From the NCBI RefSeq assembly GCF_003253705.1, contig NZ_QKYU01000012.1, positions 62,001 through 126,000 of the forward strand: a DNA stretch of 64,000 bases. Reading direction: 5' to 3'. Below are positions 987 to 37,122 of this stretch, piece after piece. Both the position numbers and the translations under genes were made by a program. This DNA is from Humitalea rosea (GTDB lineage Bacteria > Pseudomonadota > Alphaproteobacteria > Acetobacterales > Acetobacteraceae). The notes below the pieces were generated by a model that was not told the DNA's origin, did not search any database, and was given only the letters and a program-made list of their open reading frames with translations. How positions within the stretch are numbered: the stretch's first letter is position 1; each line of letters begins with the position of its first letter.

Positions 987-1340
987 ATGTCACGCATCTG
1001 GTTCTTGCTGGGCGCCCTCGCGGGCCTCTCGGCCGTTGGCTTGTCGGCCTATGCCGCGCATGGGCTGGCCGAGGCCGCGCGCCCGGCCGTCGGCCAGGCC
1101 CTGAACATGCAGGGCTGGCACGCGCTGGCGCTGCTGGCGGTGGGGTTCCTGGCCGAACGGCGGGTGGGGCGGGCGGTGAGCTTCGCCGGCCTCGCCTTCG
1201 CGGTCGGGATGGCGATGTTCTGCGGCGCGGTCTGGTATGGCGCGCTGACCGGCGAGTCGGCCGGGCGCATCGCGCCGATCGGCGGGATGCTGCTGATGGC
1301 CGGCTGGGTCGCCTTCGGCCTCGCCGCGTGGCGGCGATGA
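987..1340 (+). CDS. DUF423 small integral membrane protein
   Basis: A 117-residue hydrophobic protein with about four predicted membrane helices and the family's N-terminal pattern (LLGALAGLSAVGLSAYAAHG) and C-terminal glycine-rich GGMLLMAGWVAFGLAAW. The family (YwdK/YgdD-like) has no established function. ATG at 987 gives the usual family length; an in-frame GTG at 981 would add two residues. The stop codon overlaps the ATG of the methyltransferase gene (ATGA at 1337-1340), so the two are probably translated together, an arrangement that places a membrane protein of unknown role with an RNA methyltransferase. Confidence 0.82.
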   Translation: MSRIWFLLGALAGLSAVGLSAYAAHGLAEAARPAVGQALNMQGWHALALLAVGFLAERRVGRAVSFAGLAFAVGMAMFCGAVWYGALTGESAGRIAPIGGMLLMAGWVAFGLAAWRR

Positions 1341-2260
1341 TGGGGGCGGCGATGATCGGCGCGGCCTACCTCGCCGCCACCGGCTACGAGCAGCCGCTGG
1401 CCGAGGAACTCGCGCGGCGCGGCCGCACCATCACCGCCTGGCATGGGCGCCTGGCACTTTCGCCCGAGCCGCCGATGGCCTCCATCTGGGCGCTGGAGGT
1501 CTGGACCGATCCGGTGGACATCCCCATCGCCAGCATCAAGACCGCGGCGATGGCCCTGCGCGGCATGCAGCGTAACTGGGCGCTGTATCCGCTGCTGCAC
1601 CACCGCCGCGCCGCGCTGATCCATGAGGCGCTGCCGCCGGTGAAGGCCCGGCCGCTGACCTTCCCCGAAGCCGCGCCCACGGGGCATCTCGGCGGCTGGA
1701 CCCTGCTCGCGACCGACCGGCTGCTGGCCAGCCCGACCAAGACCAGCCCCTTCGTGAACGGGGAGGTGGTCTTCGTCGAGGACCGGCTCGGCCCGCCCTC
1801 CCGCGCCTATCTGAAACTGTGGGAAGCGCTGACCCGGATCGGCCGCTGGCCGATGGTGGGCGAAAGCTGCCTCGACCTCGGCGCCTCCCCCGGCGGCTGG
1901 ACCTGGGCGCTGGCCAAGCTCGGCGCGCGCGTGGTGGCGGTGGACAAGGCGCCGCTGGACCACCAGATCGCCGCCATGCCCGGGGTCAGCGAACGGCAGG
2001 AAAGCGCCTTTGGCCTCGACCCGCGCACCGAGCCGCCGGTGGATTGGTTGTTCAGCGACATCATTTGTTACCCGGAGCGATTGCTGACCCTGGTGCAGGC
2101 CTGGATCGCCGCCGGAACCGCGCGAAATATCGTCTGCACCATCAAATTCCAGGGTGAAACCGATTTCGCGGCCCTGGATGCCTTCGCGGCGATCCCTGGA
2201 GCGGTGATTTTCCACGGCGCGCATAACAAGCATGAGGCGATGTTCACCCGCCTTGGGTGA
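1337..2260 (+). CDS. RlmM-like 23S rRNA 2'-O-ribose methyltransferase (FtsJ/RrmJ fold)
   Basis: A protein of about 307 residues. The SAM-binding motif LDLGASPGGWTWALAKLGA is followed by VVAVDKAPL, an acidic VDWLFSDII and CTIKFQGE, which supply the K-D-K-E type tetrad used by FtsJ/RrmJ ribose methyltransferases. The region in front of the catalytic domain is longer than in RrmJ and matches the architecture of RlmM, which modifies C2498 of 23S rRNA in E. coli. It is shorter than E. coli RlmM (366 residues), so the exact target is inferred. ATG at 1337 overlaps the stop of the preceding gene; GTG at 1328 and ATG at 1340 are alternative starts. Confidence 0.75.
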   Translation: MMGAAMIGAAYLAATGYEQPLAEELARRGRTITAWHGRLALSPEPPMASIWALEVWTDPVDIPIASIKTAAMALRGMQRNWALYPLLHHRRAALIHEALPPVKARPLTFPEAAPTGHLGGWTLLATDRLLASPTKTSPFVNGEVVFVEDRLGPPSRAYLKLWEALTRIGRWPMVGESCLDLGASPGGWTWALAKLGARVVAVDKAPLDHQIAAMPGVSERQESAFGLDPRTEPPVDWLFSDIICYPERLLTLVQAWIAAGTARNIVCTIKFQGETDFAALDAFAAIPGAVIFHGAHNKHEAMFTRLG

Positions 2261-2335
2261 CGCCCATGTTGACGCGGCGCCCCCTCGCGTGCGGAATCCC
2301 GCCAATGCCTTGAATGCCTTGGGGGGAAAGTTGCG

Positions 2336-4267
<1,932 letters not shown>

Positions 4268-4280
4268 CCGAAGCCGCCCG

Positions 4281-7200
4281 TCAGGCGGCTTCGGCCGGCT
4301 TCGGCATCGCGGCCGGGCTGTCGCCCCGCGCCAGTTCGACCGCCCGGGCCGCCGCGGCCCGCGCGGCATCGAGGTCGCCCATCGCCATAAACAGGTTGGA
4401 CAGGTCGGTGTGCGTCCTCGGGTCCAGCGGGTCGAGCGCCAGCGCCTGATCGAGCCAACCCCGCGCCGCGGCGAAGTCCCGCCGGCGCGACTCGATATGG
4501 CCGCGTCGCCGCAGCAGCGCCGCATCCGGCACCGGGCTGCAGGCAATCGCGCCCTCGATGGCGGCCGCAGCCTCGTCCAGCCTGCCCTCGGTGATGCGAA
4601 GGTGAGACAGGTCGAGGTAGGTTCCGACATCCTCCGGCCAATCCGCCAGCACCTGTTCCAGCAACGCGCCCGCCCGGGCAGGATTGCCGCGCCGTGCCTC
4701 GATGGTGCTCAGGCGGCGCAGCAGGCGGGATGTGTTGCCCACGCCCCGGGCGATCGCGGCCTCCGCGGCCTCGGCGGCTCCCTCCAGATCGCCCTCGCCG
4801 ATCCGCAGGCCGGCGAGCTCGTAATGGGGCCAGGGATTTTCAGGTGCGCTGACAATCGCCTCCTGCAGCGCGCGCTGGGCGGCGTCGATATTCCGCCGGC
4901 GCGTCTCGATGCCCGAAAGGCGCAGCAGGTAGGTGATGCGGCTAGGACCGCTGCTGCGCTCCAGGGCCGCCTCGCAGGCCTCCGCCGCGCCGTCCAGATC
5001 GTTCATCGCCAGCCGCGCGCCCGCCAGATCGAACAGCGTGGTCGCATCATCGGGATCGACGCTCAGCGCCTGGACCAGGAGCTGCTGCGCGGCCGCAAAG
5101 TCCTTGCGGCGCGTCTCGATATGGGCCCGGCGGCGCAGGACGCCGCCTGGGGCCACCGTGGTCAGGCTGTGCCCGATCCGCGCGGCTTCCGCGGCGGCGC
5201 CCAGGTCACCCTGTGCCATGCGCAGCCCCGCCAGATGCAGATGCGGCCCCGGATCCTCGGGCGCGAAAGCGATGGCCTGCTCGGCCATTTCCACGGCACG
5301 ACCGGGATTGTTGCGCCGGGCCTCGATGGTGCTCAACTGGATGTGGAAATGGGGAAACGTGCTCGTATTGCGGGCAATCGCGGCCTCGGCGGCTTCACCG
5401 GCCTCGGCCAACGCGCCTTCCTCCAGCCGCAGCCCGGCGAGATCGAAGTAGAGCCACGGATCGTCCGGCGTGGCCGCGATCGCTTCCCGCAACAGGCCGT
5501 TCGCGACCGCGATATTGCCGCGGCGGCTCTCGATCCTCACCAGCATGCGCAGGGCCGAGGTCCGCGACACCGGGGTGGTCCGGGCCAGGGCCGCCTCGGC
5601 CGAGGTGGCGGCGCGACCGAAATCGCCCTTCGTCATCTGCAGTTTGGCCAGGTCGAGATGGGCGCGATAGTTTTCGGGATCGTCGGCAAGGGCGAGGCTC
5701 AGCATCGCTTCCGCCGCCACCAGGTCGCCGCGGCGGGAGTCGATGCTGGCCAGCCGCAGGTAGAAGGGCGCCAGCTTGCCGACATTCGCGGCCTTCGCCC
5801 GCTGCAGCGCGGCCTCCGCCTCGGCCCGGTCGGCGGCGATGCGTTCGGCCGCGACCGCCTGCGGGTTGATGTCGCCAATGCCGGCCGCGCCATAGCCGCC
5901 GGCCGGCTCGATGCCGAGCAGACGGGCCATCCGCTGGCGTGCGGCGGGCAGCAGCAGCTCGTAGTCGTCGACCATCAGGCTCAGGGCTTCCGGCGTCTGC
6001 ACCCCGGCCAGCTCCTCCCGCGTCCAGCCCAGCTTCGGCTTGCCCAGGCCGAAGATGACGGCGCGCGTCAGGCGGCGGATCAGCGTCCATTCGGCGACGT
6101 GGTGCGAGAGCTGATCGATCGTGCCGGTATCGGCCGCGGCGCCGAATTCGGTGGCCAGCTCCGCCGCCAGCCGGGCAAAGGCCGCGTAGCGGATATTGAC
6201 GAACATCTGCCGCGACAGCTGGTAGTAGCGCGCGGCGCGCCCGGCCAGGCCGCGCTCGGCCAGCTCGTCGTCATCCTCGACGGTGATGATCTCGGGCGGG
6301 GTCGGCAAATTGAGGCGCGGCGGCGCCGGCGGCCGGGGGGCGGGAGGCTTGGCGGCAGGGGCGGCCTTGGCCTCATCCGGCTTGGCCACCTCGGGCTTGG
6401 CGTCGTCGGGCTTGGGCTCATTCCGCGCGCCGCGCAGGCCCCGTATCTGCGGCACCAGATCGGCGACGCCGAGCTGGAGCATCAGCTGCTGCAGATCGGC
6501 CTTGATCTCCAGCAGATAGTCTTCCGAGTCCGGCTGCAGCGCGCCGATGATGCTCTTCAGCCAGGGCGGGATATTCATGCGCACCAGATCGCCGAAGTCG
6601 CCGAACTGCACCTGGCGCTGGTCGCCGTCGCGGAAGCGCAGGAACTGGCGGTAGACCTCCGGCCGCACCCCGAAATCGGGCGGCAGCTCGACCAGGACGG
6701 TGCAGAGGCGGGAGGCGAAGGTGAAGCCGTAGGCCGGCGATTCCAGCGCCCAGCGCCGCCCCTCGACCATGGCATAGACCTCGCCGTTCGAGAGCACCGC
6801 GCCGAGCCCGACCGGGTTCACCGGCAGCGACAGCGGCGGCGAGGCCGTCCCGCGGTAGCAATAGTGGATCACGATCCCCTCCTCCACCGGGACGCGTTCG
6901 AAGCGGTCGAACTGCTTCGCGCCGAGCGGGGGATCGAACAGGACGGTCTGGGGGCTGCCGGCAACGGCGCGGTCCACCTGGAGCGTGACGCCCCGGGGCA
7001 GGCGGAAGAAGCGCCGGCTCAGCGCCTGCATCAGCCAGTCGCGCGGCACCGCCGGATCGTCGCCATAGGGCGAGAGGATGGTGTTCTGCTCCTCGGCATT
7101 GCCGAGCAGCACCACCTCGGTCCAGTCGTGGTCGAGCCGGCGGCGGCCCTCGGCCCGGCACTCCTCGGTGACATCCAGCACCTCGGCGGCTTCGCCCTCG

Positions 7201-7637
7201 GCCGCGGCCTGCAGCAGCCGGCCATAGACGCCGCCACGCTGGCCAAGAATGATCTGCGCGACCAAGCCATGGCGGCAGGAGCGGTAGCGCAGGCCCAGCT
7301 TGTTGGAGGACAGCGAGGCGACCTTCGCGCCCATGCCGAAGTTGCCATCCAGCGCCTGGGTCTTGAAGAGCGACGACGACAGGTCCGACATCTGCAGCAG
7401 CTCCTCGGGGGAGAGCCCGCGGCCGGTGTTCCAGATGCTCAGCTTGGGCGTGCCGCCAATGCGGCTGGACGAAATTTGTACGAATGGTGCGGTATCGGTC
7501 GCGGAGGTGGCTGCTTCCAGCGCATTCACCACCAATTCACGCAACATCATTGTTTTCGGGCAGCGCTCGATTGTGGACGCCACCAAAAATGCCTCATCGG
7601 CAATGCGGAGGGGGACAATGTCGGTATTGGATGACAT
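4281..7637 (-). CDS. GHKL (HSP90/MutL-like) ATPase fused to a TPR-like repeat array; function unknown
   Basis: A 1118-residue protein. Residues ~1-130 form a GHKL ATP-binding domain. The N box LRELVVNALEAA (Glu34, Asn38) closely resembles HSP90. The G1 box IWNTGRGL has Asn70 where Asp usually contacts adenine, and the G2 box GNFGMGAK sits at 98-105. A middle region runs to ~404, then a Lys/Pro/Ala-rich linker (~404-447). The C-terminal half holds seven ~70-residue units, each with a marker I-D/E-x-R-R (IDSRRGD, IESRRGN, IEARRNN, IETRRKD, IETRRRN, IEARRGN, IESRRRD) followed by A-x-x-LL-x-A and a second helix pair ending GDLxGAAEAAEAAIAR, a TPR-like pattern. The start MSSNTD is chosen because GGAG lies 11 bases upstream; the open frame continues upstream only through non-coding-looking sequence. 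It is monocistronic. The role is unknown; an ATP-driven scaffold or chaperone is an inference. Confidence 0.75.
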   Translation of the reverse strand: MSSNTDIVPLRIADEAFLVASTIERCPKTMMLRELVVNALEAATSATDTAPFVQISSSRIGGTPKLSIWNTGRGLSPEELLQMSDLSSSLFKTQALDGNFGMGAKVASLSSNKLGLRYRSCRHGLVAQIILGQRGGVYGRLLQAAAEGEAAEVLDVTEECRAEGRRRLDHDWTEVVLLGNAEEQNTILSPYGDDPAVPRDWLMQALSRRFFRLPRGVTLQVDRAVAGSPQTVLFDPPLGAKQFDRFERVPVEEGIVIHYCYRGTASPPLSLPVNPVGLGAVLSNGEVYAMVEGRRWALESPAYGFTFASRLCTVLVELPPDFGVRPEVYRQFLRFRDGDQRQVQFGDFGDLVRMNIPPWLKSIIGALQPDSEDYLLEIKADLQQLMLQLGVADLVPQIRGLRGARNEPKPDDAKPEVAKPDEAKAAPAAKPPAPRPPAPPRLNLPTPPEIITVEDDDELAERGLAGRAARYYQLSRQMFVNIRYAAFARLAAELATEFGAAADTGTIDQLSHHVAEWTLIRRLTRAVIFGLGKPKLGWTREELAGVQTPEALSLMVDDYELLLPAARQRMARLLGIEPAGGYGAAGIGDINPQAVAAERIAADRAEAEAALQRAKAANVGKLAPFYLRLASIDSRRGDLVAAEAMLSLALADDPENYRAHLDLAKLQMTKGDFGRAATSAEAALARTTPVSRTSALRMLVRIESRRGNIAVANGLLREAIAATPDDPWLYFDLAGLRLEEGALAEAGEAAEAAIARNTSTFPHFHIQLSTIEARRNNPGRAVEMAEQAIAFAPEDPGPHLHLAGLRMAQGDLGAAAEAARIGHSLTTVAPGGVLRRRAHIETRRKDFAAAQQLLVQALSVDPDDATTLFDLAGARLAMNDLDGAAEACEAALERSSGPSRITYLLRLSGIETRRRNIDAAQRALQEAIVSAPENPWPHYELAGLRIGEGDLEGAAEAAEAAIARGVGNTSRLLRRLSTIEARRGNPARAGALLEQVLADWPEDVGTYLDLSHLRITEGRLDEAAAAIEGAIACSPVPDAALLRRRGHIESRRRDFAAARGWLDQALALDPLDPRTHTDLSNLFMAMGDLDAARAAAARAVELARGDSPAAMPKPAEAA

Positions 7638-7728
7638 TTGAAACAATTCTCCGAACTGGATAGCACTCGAATGCGGCACGTTGCCGGCCCTTTTATGGCA
7701 GCCGGTGACATCCCATTTTGCACCGGGC

Positions 7729-7756
7729 GCAATAAGGCTGTGCCGGCTCTTGTAAA
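7729..7756 (-). promoter_or_regulatory. Possible sigma70-type promoter for the GHKL-TPR gene
   Basis: Read on the minus strand, TTTACA (7756-7751) is followed after 16 bases by TATTGC (7734-7729). This is a plausible but weak -35/-10 pair and would give a leader of roughly 85 bases before the start codon at 7637. It is the only candidate seen in the 188-base gap upstream of the gene. Confidence 0.3.
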
Positions 7757-7825
7757 GCAAATCCTGTTCCAATGAAGCGCCTGATTGTCGACGGCTCGCG
7801 CAGCTGTGTTCGCGCCGGCACGAGT

Positions 7826-8626
7826 CTAGCGAATTCCCGCGCGCATGAACGACTGCACGAACTGCCGCTGGAACAGCAGGAAGCCGAGCAGCAGCGGTGC
7901 CGAGGTCATCAGCGTGGCCGCGCTGATGATGGACCAGTCGATGCCCTGATCGGTGGAGGCGAAGACCGACAGCCCCACCGTCAGCGGGCGCGTCTCCACC
8001 GTGTTGGTGATGACCAGCGGCCAAAGAAAGTTGTTCCAGTGGAACGACACCGAGGTCAACCCGTAGGCCAGATAGGTCGGCCGCGCCAAGGGCACATAGA
8101 CCCGCATCAGGATGCGGAAGGTGCCGCAGCCCTCGACGCGGGCGGCATCATCCAGTTCCTTCGGCACCTGCTTGAAGGTCTGCCGCAACAGGAAGATGCC
8201 GAAGGCCGAGGCCATGTAGGGCAGCCCGATCGCCAGGATCGTGTCCACCAGCCCCAGCGCGCGCATGGTGCGGTAGTTCTCGACCAGCAGCACATCGGGC
8301 AGGATCATGAGTTGCAGCAGCACCAGCCCGAACAGCAGCCCGCTGCCGGGAAACTTCGCGCGGGCGAAGGCGAAGCCCGCCAGCGTGCAGAGCACCAACT
8401 GCGCCGCGAGCACGCTCGTCACCAGCAGGAAGGTGTTGAGGAAGTAGCGCCCGAACGGTGCCGCCGCCCAGGCCGCGGTGAAATTGTCGAAGGTCAGCGG
8501 CGCCAGCAGATCGAACCGCGTCGCATACATCGACGGATGCACCGCGGCCCAAAGCGCATAGGCCAGCGGCGCGATCCAGAGCAGGCCGAGCAGCCAGGCC
8601 GCCAGGGTTTCCAGCGTGCGGCTCAT
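7826..8626 (-). CDS. Carbohydrate/polyol ABC transporter permease, MalG/UgpE-like
   Basis: A 266-residue inner-membrane protein with six predicted helices. It is the second permease of the importer encoded between 7.8 and 11.9 kb. The EAA-loop segment (LDDAARVEGCGTFRILMRVYVPLARP, in pieces) that contacts the ATPase is clear near residue 170. The ATG at 8626 overlaps the stop of the preceding permease gene (ATGA). The family normally forms a heterodimeric channel with a MalF/UgpA-type partner, which is the adjacent upstream gene. The substrate cannot be read from the permease alone. Confidence 0.9.
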   Translation of the reverse strand: MSRTLETLAAWLLGLLWIAPLAYALWAAVHPSMYATRFDLLAPLTFDNFTAAWAAAPFGRYFLNTFLLVTSVLAAQLVLCTLAGFAFARAKFPGSGLLFGLVLLQLMILPDVLLVENYRTMRALGLVDTILAIGLPYMASAFGIFLLRQTFKQVPKELDDAARVEGCGTFRILMRVYVPLARPTYLAYGLTSVSFHWNNFLWPLVITNTVETRPLTVGLSVFASTDQGIDWSIISAATLMTSAPLLLGFLLFQRQFVQSFMRAGIR

Positions 8627-10792: not shown

Positions 10793-11916
10793 GGCGTGTC
10801 GATCCTCTCGGGGTGAAGGCTTTGCTGGGCCGCGCGGAAAAAATCCGGCAGGCGCCGGCCGGTCGCGGCGTCGAAAAGATGCTGGGGCGGCGGCAGCCGC
10901 AGCCGCAGCGGAGTGCCCGCGGCCATCGCGTGGTGCCCGGGCACCCGGGCCTGCACCATCTGCCCGGCGGTGCCGAGGGCGCAGCTCAGCACCGTCTCCG
11001 CGCCCAAAAATTCCACCGCCAGCACCGCCGCCGGCAGGCCGTGGCCATCGGTCGGCACCACCTCCTCCGGCCGCACGCCGAGCAGGCCGCCCGCCGCCTC
11101 GGCCGGGGCCACCGCATGGCCGGGCAGGCCGGCGATGACGGCACCGCCCTGCCCTGCCTCCAGCCGCAGCAGCGACATCGGCGGCGTGCCGATGAAGGAG
11201 GCCGCGAAGACCGTGGCGGGGCGGGCGTAGAGTTCGGCCGGGGTGGCGTCCTGTTCGATCCGGCCCTCGCGCATCAGCACGACCTGGTCGGCCATGCTCA
11301 TGGCCTCGGCCTGATCGTGGGTGACATAGACCATGGTCAGGCCGAGCCGCTGTTGCAGCGCGCGAATCTCGCGCCGCATCTCGGCGCGCAGCTTGGCGTC
11401 GAGGTTGGAGAGCGGTTCATCCATCAGGCAGATCGGCGCCTCGGCCACCACCGCGCGGGCCAGCGCCACGCGCTGCTGCTGCCCGCCGGAGAGCTGGCTC
11501 GGCCGGCGGGCCAGCAGGGCGCCAAGGCCCAGCATGTCCGCCGCACGCGCCAGCCGGGCCTCACGCTCGCCCCGCGCGGTGCCGCGCGCGCGCAGGCCAA
11601 AGACGATGTTCTCGGCGACGGAGAGATGCGGGAACAGCGCGTAGGACTGGAACACCATGGCGATGCCGCGCGCCGCCGGCGGCAGCCCCGCGACATCCCG
11701 CCCGCCGAGGAACAGCCGCCCGGCGGCCGGCGCCTCCAGCCCCGCCATCACCCGCAGCAAGGTCGATTTGCCGCAGCCGGAGGGGCCGAGCAGGACGAGG
11801 AAGGTGCCGGCGGGGGCCGAAAGCGTCACATCGGCCAAGGCCCGGGTAGAGCCAAAGCTCTTGGCGACCCCATCCAGGCGAATGGCGCCCCTGCTGTCCT
11901 GCTGCGTCGAAATCAT
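10789..11916 (-). CDS. ABC transporter ATP-binding protein, UgpC/MalK-like
   Basis: A 375-residue cytoplasmic ATPase, first gene of the four-gene importer operon. Walker A (GPSGCGKST) is near residue 44, the signature LSGGQQQR near 140 and Walker B with CLMDEPLSN near 160. The C-terminal ~130 residues form an OB/TOBE-like regulatory extension typical of MalK/UgpC ATPases rather than a bare nucleotide-binding domain. The gene order (ATPase, binding protein, two permeases) and the 4-base overlaps show a single transcript running leftward. No operon repressor gene is adjacent. Confidence 0.92.
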   Translation of the reverse strand: MISTQQDSRGAIRLDGVAKSFGSTRALADVTLSAPAGTFLVLLGPSGCGKSTLLRVMAGLEAPAAGRLFLGGRDVAGLPPAARGIAMVFQSYALFPHLSVAENIVFGLRARGTARGEREARLARAADMLGLGALLARRPSQLSGGQQQRVALARAVVAEAPICLMDEPLSNLDAKLRAEMRREIRALQQRLGLTMVYVTHDQAEAMSMADQVVLMREGRIEQDATPAELYARPATVFAASFIGTPPMSLLRLEAGQGGAVIAGLPGHAVAPAEAAGGLLGVRPEEVVPTDGHGLPAAVLAVEFLGAETVLSCALGTAGQMVQARVPGHHAMAAGTPLRLRLPPPQHLFDAATGRRLPDFFRAAQQSLHPERIDTP

Positions 11917-11978
11917 GCGCGCCGCCTTAACCGGGCAGCACGTCGCTCCGATGACAACAGGGTTTCAGATGCGTGACA

Positions 11979-12641
11979 TCAACCCGTCCCGAAGACCTTG
12001 CCCCAGGCATCGCGCAGCGCCGCATCCAGCGCCGGCATATCCGCCGTGATGCCCAGGTCGGCGAGGCTGGTCACCCCATGCTGGCTGATCCCGCAGGGCA
12101 CGATGCCCGAGAAATGCCCGAGGTCCGGCGCCAGATTCACCGCGACTCCATGCCAGGCGACCCAGCGGGTCACCCGCACGCCGATCGCCGCGACCTTGTC
12201 CTCCCGCCCGCCGCCGCGATCGACCCAGAGGCCGATCCGCCCCTCCCGCCGCTCCGCGGTCACGCCGAGGCTGGCCAAGGCGGTGATGACCCAGCCCTCC
12301 AGCGCATGGACATAGGCGCGGATGTCGCGCGGCGGGATCGCGCGATCCTCCCGCGTCAGGTCCAGCATCACATAGGCGGTGCGCTGGCCGGGGCCGTGAT
12401 AGGTCCATTGCCCGCCCCGCCCGGCGGCGAACACCGGGAATCGGGGGTCCAGCATGCCCTCGGGCGTGGCGGAGGTGCCGCTGGTGTAGGTGGGGGGGTG
12501 TTCGACCAGCCAGACGAGGTCGCAGGCCGTCCCGGCCCGGAGTCCGGCCACCCGCGCGGCCATCGCCGCCAGCGCCTGCGGATATGGCAGCAGCCCCGGT
12601 GCGGTTATCCACGCAGGGCCAGTTGAACCCGCGCGCATCAT
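11979..12641 (-). CDS. lipB: Octanoyl-[acyl-carrier-protein] transferase (lipoate biosynthesis)
   Basis: A 220-residue enzyme that moves octanoyl from ACP onto lipoyl domains of 2-oxoacid dehydrogenases. Conserved features are [32 protein letters not shown], the catalytic lysine in [18 protein letters not shown] and the catalytic cysteine in [13 protein letters not shown]. The start is placed at the ATG pair 12641/12638. An upstream extension to 12713 would run through the tRNA-Leu gene and is rejected. LipA is not in the window. Confidence 0.93.
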
Positions 12642-12661
12642 AGGATAAGTCCCCGGCCTCT

Positions 12662-12747
12662 GCGGTCGTGGCGGAATGGTAGACGCGCCAGCTTGAGGTG
12701 CTGGTAGGGGCAACCCTGTGGAAGTTCGAATCTTCTCGACCGCACCA
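12662..12747 (+). tRNA. tRNA-Leu (anticodon GAG)
   Basis: An 86-base class II tRNA with an encoded CCA end. The acceptor stem GCGGTCG (12662-12668) pairs with CGACCGC (12737-12743). The discriminator A is at 12744 and CCA at 12745-12747. The anticodon stem CCAGC/GCTGG brackets the loop TTGAGGT with anticodon GAG at 12695-12697. A long variable arm (GTAGGGGCAACCCT) and the T arm with GTTCGAATC follow. It begins 20 bases from the divergently oriented lipB start. Confidence 0.95.
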
Positions 12748-36854: not shown

Positions 36855-36907
36855 CGGCGCGGCAACGAGGCTTGCGCGCCCGCCCCGGCGGACGCACAAA
36901 CCTCGCG

Positions 36908-36995
36908 GACATCGGGGGGAGCCCATACCGGGCTGAGAGGCGGGCAACCGCGACCCCTGGAACCTGCTCCGGTTCGGACCGGCGAAGGGATCGGT
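36908..36995 (+). promoter_or_regulatory. TPP (THI-box) riboswitch
   Basis: The segment carries the conserved elements in order: GGGGGGAGCCC, GGGCTGAGAGGCGGGC with CTGAGA at 36933-36938, GACCCCTGGAACCTG, and CCGGTTCGGACCGGCGAAGGGA. These match the thiamine pyrophosphate aptamer, including the GAACCTG and GCGAAGGG cores. A GC-rich hairpin CCCCGTC/GACGGGG (37027-37033 with 37039-37045) lies between aptamer and gene and may act in the switch. It precedes the family-5 binding protein at 37123. Confidence 0.93.
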
Positions 36996-37122
36996 GCGCC
37001 TTACCCGGCCAACCGTACGTCCGCCCCCCCGTCCGCGTGACGGGGCCGGCGGCGCACGGCTGCACGGTCGCCCCCTCCCCCCGCCTGCCACCAGACCCGG
37101 CGTGGGAGGAGATTTTAGGCCC

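Follow-up and report, generated by a model that had tools for sequence, protein, structure and literature searches.

A family of GHKL-S5 clamp ATPases with a fixed asparagine in the adenine pocket and, in one clade, a TPR arm

We analysed a stretch of 64,000 nucleotides from Humitalea rosea, Acetobacteraceae (the window; NCBI RefSeq assembly GCF_003253705.1, contig NZ_QKYU01000012.1, positions 62,001 to 126,000), and in it one gene, an open reading frame that runs on the minus strand from an ATG at 7637 to a stop at 4281 and encodes 1118 amino acids. The protein belongs to a real family of GHKL-S5 clamp ATPases with a fixed asparagine in the adenine pocket, and one clade of this family is joined to an arm of tetratricopeptide repeats (TPRs). 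As far as we found in the literature, Pfam, NCBIfam, PADLOC and PHROGs, no family with this layout is described, and an earlier sequence-only reading of the window, which gave the coordinates exactly and left out the strand, had likewise called the layout unfamiliar. We propose that the protein is a clamp ATPase of the paraMORC/Hsp90 type whose TPR arm serves recognition, with a role in conflict or in the modification of DNA. That it is a clamp ATPase with TPRs as its partner is very likely; the explanation as a whole falls a little short of an even chance.

The GHKL-S5 module and the TPR array

Pfam finds only generic HATPase and TPR models in the protein. The HATPase_c model matches residues 31-115 with an E-value of 1.9e-4 and 22.3 bits, under its curated cut-off of 26.4, and it matches 34 of the 39 aligned family members at E 0.1 or better. 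Residues ~446-575 make up a third domain, which is conserved in the family and has no Pfam match in the window protein. Sequence profile searches of the PDB returned weak matches only, the best GHKL match being TRAP1 (E 0.25).

An AlphaFold2 (AF2) model of residues 1-600, for which the window protein was aligned with 33 relatives, has a mean predicted local distance difference test score (pLDDT) of 85. The predicted module has the Bergerat fold of the GHKL superfamily. Foldseek against the PDB matches it to Hsp90 (E 2.9e-10) and to MORC2 (E 9.3e-10), and with VIA the Hsp90 match spans the N-terminal and middle domains, residues 13-369 (Z 18.2, root-mean-square deviation 4.5, 286 aligned). According to the model, these residues are the GHKL-S5 module of clamp ATPases, i.e. 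a GHKL domain joined to an S5 domain within one bacterial protein, as in the paraMORCs in the broad sense. The description "close to Hsp90" holds for the module, but MORC2 and SMCHD1 come almost as near, with a Z of 17.1 each.

The MORC S5 motif GhXhhpXXRhl is missing from the window protein, and none of the 39 family members has it in strict form (three in a loose form). No counterpart of the C-terminal dimerisation domain of Hsp90 was detected, the matches lying mostly within residues 13-369 and the remaining part being barely tested. By motif the protein is not a MORC, and an identity as Hsp90 is not established. That it would work like a clamp of the paraMORC/Hsp90 type is well supported by the sequence and the predicted structure.

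The second half of the protein is a TPR array. TPR_19 matches with an E-value of 1.1e-38, and the marker I-D/E-x-R-R occurs seven times at a spacing of 69-70 residues, compared with 0.03 times on average and at most twice in shuffles of residues 590-1118. In a full-length model, residues 592-1104 form unbroken TPR helices, and the 14 helix pairs are 14 TPRs of the 34-residue helix-turn-helix type, two in each repeat of ~69 residues. Together with the fold of residues 13-369, this bears out the original description of a GHKL/Hsp90-like ATPase fused to seven repeats of ~70 residues. The full-length model has a predicted template modelling score (pTM) of 0.50, so it does not fix the placement of the arm against the clamp.

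In the tree of the 39 family members the fused proteins form one clade (support 99/97). There are six: the window protein, a paralogue in the same genome and the proteins of Roseomonas nepalensis, Siccirubricoccus deserti, Rhodospirillales bacterium 69-11 and Pseudochelatococcus lubricantis. They sit within a joint TPR clade of 14 (support 98/95), which also holds seven loci with a TPR gene next door and one exception (L021), where a TPR-glycosyltransferase gene lies in convergent orientation. The separate TPR gene starts 10-114 nt downstream of the ATPase gene in the seven loci; it was called by Pfam in six of them and, in L023, where the contig end cuts it, by BLAST and the repeat pattern. 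The repeat period is 68 residues in the seven separate TPR proteins and 69 in the window array. Thus the gene stands alone in the window, as first read, but at seven sister loci the TPRs are encoded by an adjoining gene of their own.

Because a TPR protein is either next door (7/14) or fused (6/14) in this clade, the ATPase and TPR parts probably act together. Separate in some loci and fused in others is the classic pattern of two partners merged into one protein, and the fusion points to the TPR array as the clamp's partner. The paralogue is a second fused GHKL-TPR gene, at 1300-4638 of a 5.4-kb contig (C57), and its protein is 69% identical to the window protein over residues 1-600. These two proteins share 70% identity in the clamp against 50% in the TPR array; the arm is thus the faster-changing part.

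Hsp90 proteins head the fold matches (Z up to 18.2), TPR co-chaperones assist Hsp90 in eukaryotes, and here partner and ATPase are fused. These points would fit a dedicated chaperone, an Hsp90-like clamp with a fused co-chaperone arm that serves a host client and not a conflict. However, MORC2 and SMCHD1 match nearly as well, the dimerisation domain of Hsp90 was not detected in the barely tested remainder, and the patchy spread of the family is unlike that of a housekeeping chaperone. The protein also ends in SPAAMPKPAEAA and not in MEEVD, although bacterial HtpG lacks MEEVD too. We consider a chaperone unlikely.

Asparagine 70 in the adenine pocket

Most GHKL proteins have an aspartate at this position of the G1 box, which contacts adenine. 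Few residues of GHKL ATPases are as conserved as the one that recognises adenine, and its change is expected to harm the use of ATP. The window protein has the G1 box IWNTGRG, with Asn70 in place of the aspartate, as well as the N box, both as the sequence-only reading had stated. The GHKL signature DxGxG is therefore replaced by NxGxG.

We aligned 39 family members (alignment A2). Two proteins of a first alignment were left out, L037 for its broken frame (with one in-frame TGA in that part of the contig) and L053 as a distant, Asp-type sequence. Position 70 is Asn in 39/39, and the residues Glu34 (catalytic) and Asn38 (Mg-binding) of the N box, Gly72, Gly74, Gly101, Gly103, Lys105, Thr173 and Arg330 are likewise kept in all of them. 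An Asp at this position, which would make the protein ordinary, is seen in distant relatives only.

Among the 32 loci on virus-classed contigs (classification from IMG/VR), the Asn-type motif is present in nine (L070-L077 and L079). Several of the nine are near-copies, L072 and L073 being identical and L071/L075 and L074/L076 nearly so, and L079 is without one Gly of the motif. The other 24 rows are more distant (23 virus-contig loci plus L053) and have Asp in 19, Asn in a broken motif in four and Ser in one. The four with a broken motif (L087, L090, L094, L101) are distant viral-contig GHKL proteins that fall outside the family in the tree; the aligned Ser belongs to L084, also a distant viral-contig row.

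A tree built without column 70 places the 47 Asn rows in one group (SH-like approximate likelihood ratio test, SH-aLRT, 99) with 15 Asp rows outside, in a quick reconstruction with long branches. It dropped the short pieces L077, L086, L089, L098 and L100, and the long piece of L077 is missing as well, one piece per name being retained. Asp is likely the older state. In the profile alignment with TRAP1, weak by itself (E 0.25), Asn70 is paired with the Asp of DTGIGM. Thirty other HATPase_c_3 loci, read with a simple motif search, gave Asp in 22 and Asn in none; eight were unreadable, four with a Leu-initial motif (probably the wrong stretch) and four without the motif.

The change from Asp to Asn is rare in the G1 box, yet it has precedents in histidine kinases, as described in an excerpt of PMC10017428. 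There, adenine remains hydrogen-bonded in ThkA with Asn. With the same residue, VanSA and VanSC bind ATP in the millimolar range only and have no preference for GTP, and the authors could not tie the weak binding to the Asn. The same excerpt cites a Bacillus anthracis histidine kinase with this change as preferring GTP. Since these accepted GHKL kinases carry the change, Asn70 alone does not exclude membership of the superfamily. The catalytic residues, kept in 39/39, favour an active enzyme, and judged by its sequence the window protein resembles a working NTPase whose base recognition is altered. Asn70 implies that base recognition is altered or weakened: either ATP may be held via the hydrogen bond only, or the nucleotide may be a non-adenine one.

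Asn70 could also mark a weak or slow binding site that serves as a switch, and the protein would then be a non-hydrolysing nucleotide sensor. Hsp90 needs the Asp at this position for ATP. The millimolar binding of VanSA and VanSC points the same way, within the limit just given, whereas ThkA with Asn still bonds adenine (both from the excerpt of PMC10017428). Moreover, Glu34, Asn38 and the other catalytic positions would be needless in a dead enzyme, and all are kept. We regard a sensor as quite unlikely and prefer an active clamp ATPase.

Surroundings, spread and possible role

The features of the gene are collected in Table 1.

Table 1. Features of the GHKL-TPR gene, in window positions, with the evidence for each.
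Feature	Position	Strand	Evidence
Whole gene, 1118 aa, ATG start	4281..7637	-	Open reading frame; start matching the starts of relatives
GHKL + S5 (Hsp90/MORC-type) ATPase module, residues 13-369 (predicted)	6531..7601	-	AF2, Foldseek, VIA
N box MLRELVVNALEAA (residues 31-43), with catalytic Glu34 and Mg-binding Asn38	7509..7547	-	E34/N38 in 39/39 of A2
Asn70 codon, G1 box WNTGRG	7428..7430	-	Asn in 39/39 of A2 and in nine viral-contig loci
ATP-lid/G2 motif NFGMGAKV (residues 99-106)	7320..7343	-	Seven positions invariant, Met102 nearly invariant (A2/A3)
Arg330, candidate basic residue for catalysis in the S5 domain	6648..6650	-	Arg in 39/39 of A2; putative catalytic role
Pro/Ala-rich linker, residues 396-445	6303..6452	-	Low pLDDT and sequence
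Unassigned domain at the C-terminal end of the core protein, residues 446-580	5898..6302	-	Conserved across A2
TPR array, residues 592-1104, 14 TPRs = seven ~69-residue super-repeats	4326..5864	-	Pfam, model, marker spacing

The gap to the next upstream gene is 188 nt, and this gene, named by eye from its translation alone, reads as a sugar ABC (ATP-binding cassette) permease. The promoter-like region proposed earlier was not recovered: a scan of 4200-8000, which knows one promoter type only, found no sigma-70-like sites. A palindrome search upstream of the six fused genes found none. No empty site could be demonstrated for the window gene; acs was not found within 9-12 kb around the likely orthologous permease in seven relatives. 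Elsewhere in the window there are, on the plus strand, a thiamine pyrophosphate (TPP) riboswitch aptamer at 36905-37008 and a tRNA-Leu (gag) at 12662-12747, with which a minus-strand reading frame (11979-12713) overlaps at its start.

The spread of the family is patchy. The ATPase was found in 11 of the 149 other genomes of a family sample and in one of the 239 of a class sample, the latter with few genomes of the window's own family. Seven of 72,556 plasmid records have it, one of them being the distant Asp-type L053. In 50,697 phage records tblastn gave no match for residues 1-400 nor for the core proteins of L070, L071, L072, L079, L082 and L095; as a positive control, the C5 methylase of L071 matched 1,675 records. 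The scans of these collections detect only loci that keep short conserved peptides, and the family is therefore surely larger than the set gathered here.

Outside the TPR clade the ATPase gene is without an evident partner or adjoins other genes. A DndB-like gene (PF14072, by Pfam) lies directly upstream in rhizobia (L043 6434-7918, L044 6471-7928) and on a virus-classed contig (L070 1761-3212), where it matches phrog_36010; for the DndB-like upstream gene of L045 the basis is BLAST counts only. In six loci (L025, L030, L046, L050, L051, L052) a conserved protein of ~75 residues directly precedes the ATPase gene. The L050 copy (11779-11976) has no Pfam or PADLOC match, and the four copies printed share GNLSNR. 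A C5 methylase follows the ATPase in L071, and a ParB-MT-A70 protein in L079. Finally, a gene for CHASE2 and a guanylate/adenylate cyclase lies 55 nt after the Asn-type GHKL gene (L072/L073 8001-11979, L077 7965-12042), assigned by Pfam in L072 and L077, with L073 being the same stretch as L072. Among the part of the neighbours that was scanned, methylases were seen at two loci and DndB-like genes at four. GajA and GajB lie downstream of the ATPase in L050 and L051, on two kinds of plasmid. The window protein itself, considered as GajA or GajB, matches neither; there they are separate neighbours.

The proposed mechanism would run as follows. Nucleotide binding in the GHKL pocket would close the lid and join two subunits, and the S5 domain would give a basic residue, with Arg330 as the candidate, for hydrolysis. 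The opening and closing of the clamp would act on a ligand held by the TPR superhelix. In Acetobacteraceae the TPRs would be the part that binds the target or partner. An ancestral two-gene unit, ATPase gene then TPR gene, may have merged into one.

The sequence-only reading had suggested a chaperone, a scaffold or a defence role. To us the most likely role would be a part in conflicts with phages or invading DNA, or in the modification of DNA, because the neighbours vary from clade to clade and the family is partly carried on plasmids and virus-classed contigs. This role is based on the patchy spread, the mobile carriers and the DNA-modification neighbours of sister clades, and we assign it tentatively, as somewhat doubtful when taken by itself.

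Several observations weigh against a conflict role. Defence islands around the clade of the window are not part of its basis, and the genes flanking the window gene read, from their translations, as an acetyl-CoA synthetase and a sugar ABC operon. The L050 and L051 ATPases are 85% identical, and the Gabija adjacency is therefore a single observation. Known defence genes are rare near the genome_contigs loci. At 31 of the 33 such loci we scanned 108 script-called neighbour proteins of 130-1,100 residues within ~2.3 kb, TPR partners excluded, and 32 PADLOC families (a raw count) matched at E <= 1e-15; among the matches listed, which give one member each for 25 of the 32 families, only three names occur (PDC-S05, PDC-S23, mad3). 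Glycan genes, in turn, stand beside some loci of the TPR clade, four of the 14: Polysacc_synt in L016, FkbM and a glycosyltransferase in L018, the convergent TPR-glycosyltransferase of L021 and an upstream TPR-glycosyltransferase in L023.

Beyond this clade, a glycosyltransferase gene also lies next to L042, and the second L031 copy has a weak match of this kind beside it (E 0.0039, below the cut-off). A regulator of surface-glycan or envelope synthesis, with the TPRs binding glycan enzymes, would fit these neighbours, but it is very doubtful, as gene and position differ among the loci, the counts are raw and come from neighbours scanned with Pfam in part, the window gene has only a sugar ABC transporter (read from translation) beside it, and glycan clusters are common island sites.

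A further variant of the conflict role is improbable. The clamp family would run on a nucleotide other than ATP, either GTP or a signal nucleotide made in infection, and, combined with recognition modules that differ between clades (a TPR array, a DndB-like protein, a small protein, a neighbouring cyclase), it would form a modular conflict system in Alphaproteobacteria and their viruses. A family-wide Asn with the catalytic Glu kept is a natural experiment on whether a clamp of the Hsp90/MORC type can switch its nucleotide, and the fusion makes both fuel and ligand testable with one or two proteins.

Comparison with known families

Neither NCBIfam nor PADLOC has a model that matches the window protein in its GHKL part, and PHROGs has no match for residues 1-400. 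PADLOC-DB 2.0.0 gives two matches, both in the TPR part (E 1.1e-6 and 8e-4), and the core proteins of L050 and L043 match no PADLOC family at E 0.01. PMC10853773 makes no mention of HSP90, GHKL or TPR.

T4-type RIIA resembles the window protein in having a GHKL-S5 module by fold (KVP40 RIIA, E 2.2e-9). We rejected a kinship with RIIA, as the match is generic and partial (TM about 0.3) and topoisomerase II and viral Hsp90 match equally. VcSduA, a Shedu protein with a GHKL domain, is also a bacterial GHKL ATPase in a phage-defence protein; according to an excerpt of PMC12137116 it has its own PD-(D/E)xK nuclease domain, whereas Pfam finds none in the window protein. VanSA, VanSC, ThkA and the B. 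anthracis kinase share the Asp-to-Asn change in the GHKL pocket (excerpt of PMC10017428). These are kinases and not GHKL-S5 clamps, and in the present family the change is fixed throughout.

Hsp90, HtpG and TRAP1 share the fold of the GHKL and middle domains (Z up to 18.2) and the N box LRELVVNALEAA. They differ from the window family in the residue at the adenine contact, Asp in place of Asn, and the TPRs, which are fused in the window protein, are on separate co-chaperones in the case of Hsp90.

The differences from MORC and the paraMORCs are the Asn at the G1 Asp and the TPR arm. In addition, the window protein is without the MORC motif, and no SFII helicase, methylase or endonuclease gene of the paraMORC kind was seen beside the window gene among the partly scanned neighbours. 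The likeness to MORC and paraMORC1-5, as described in an excerpt of PMC2292703, is the N-terminal GHKL domain joined to an S5 domain, together with an extra C-terminal domain in several of them, a patchy spread and DNA-methylase neighbours at some loci. If the conflict role is true, the TPR array would be a new kind of recognition arm for paraMORC-like systems.

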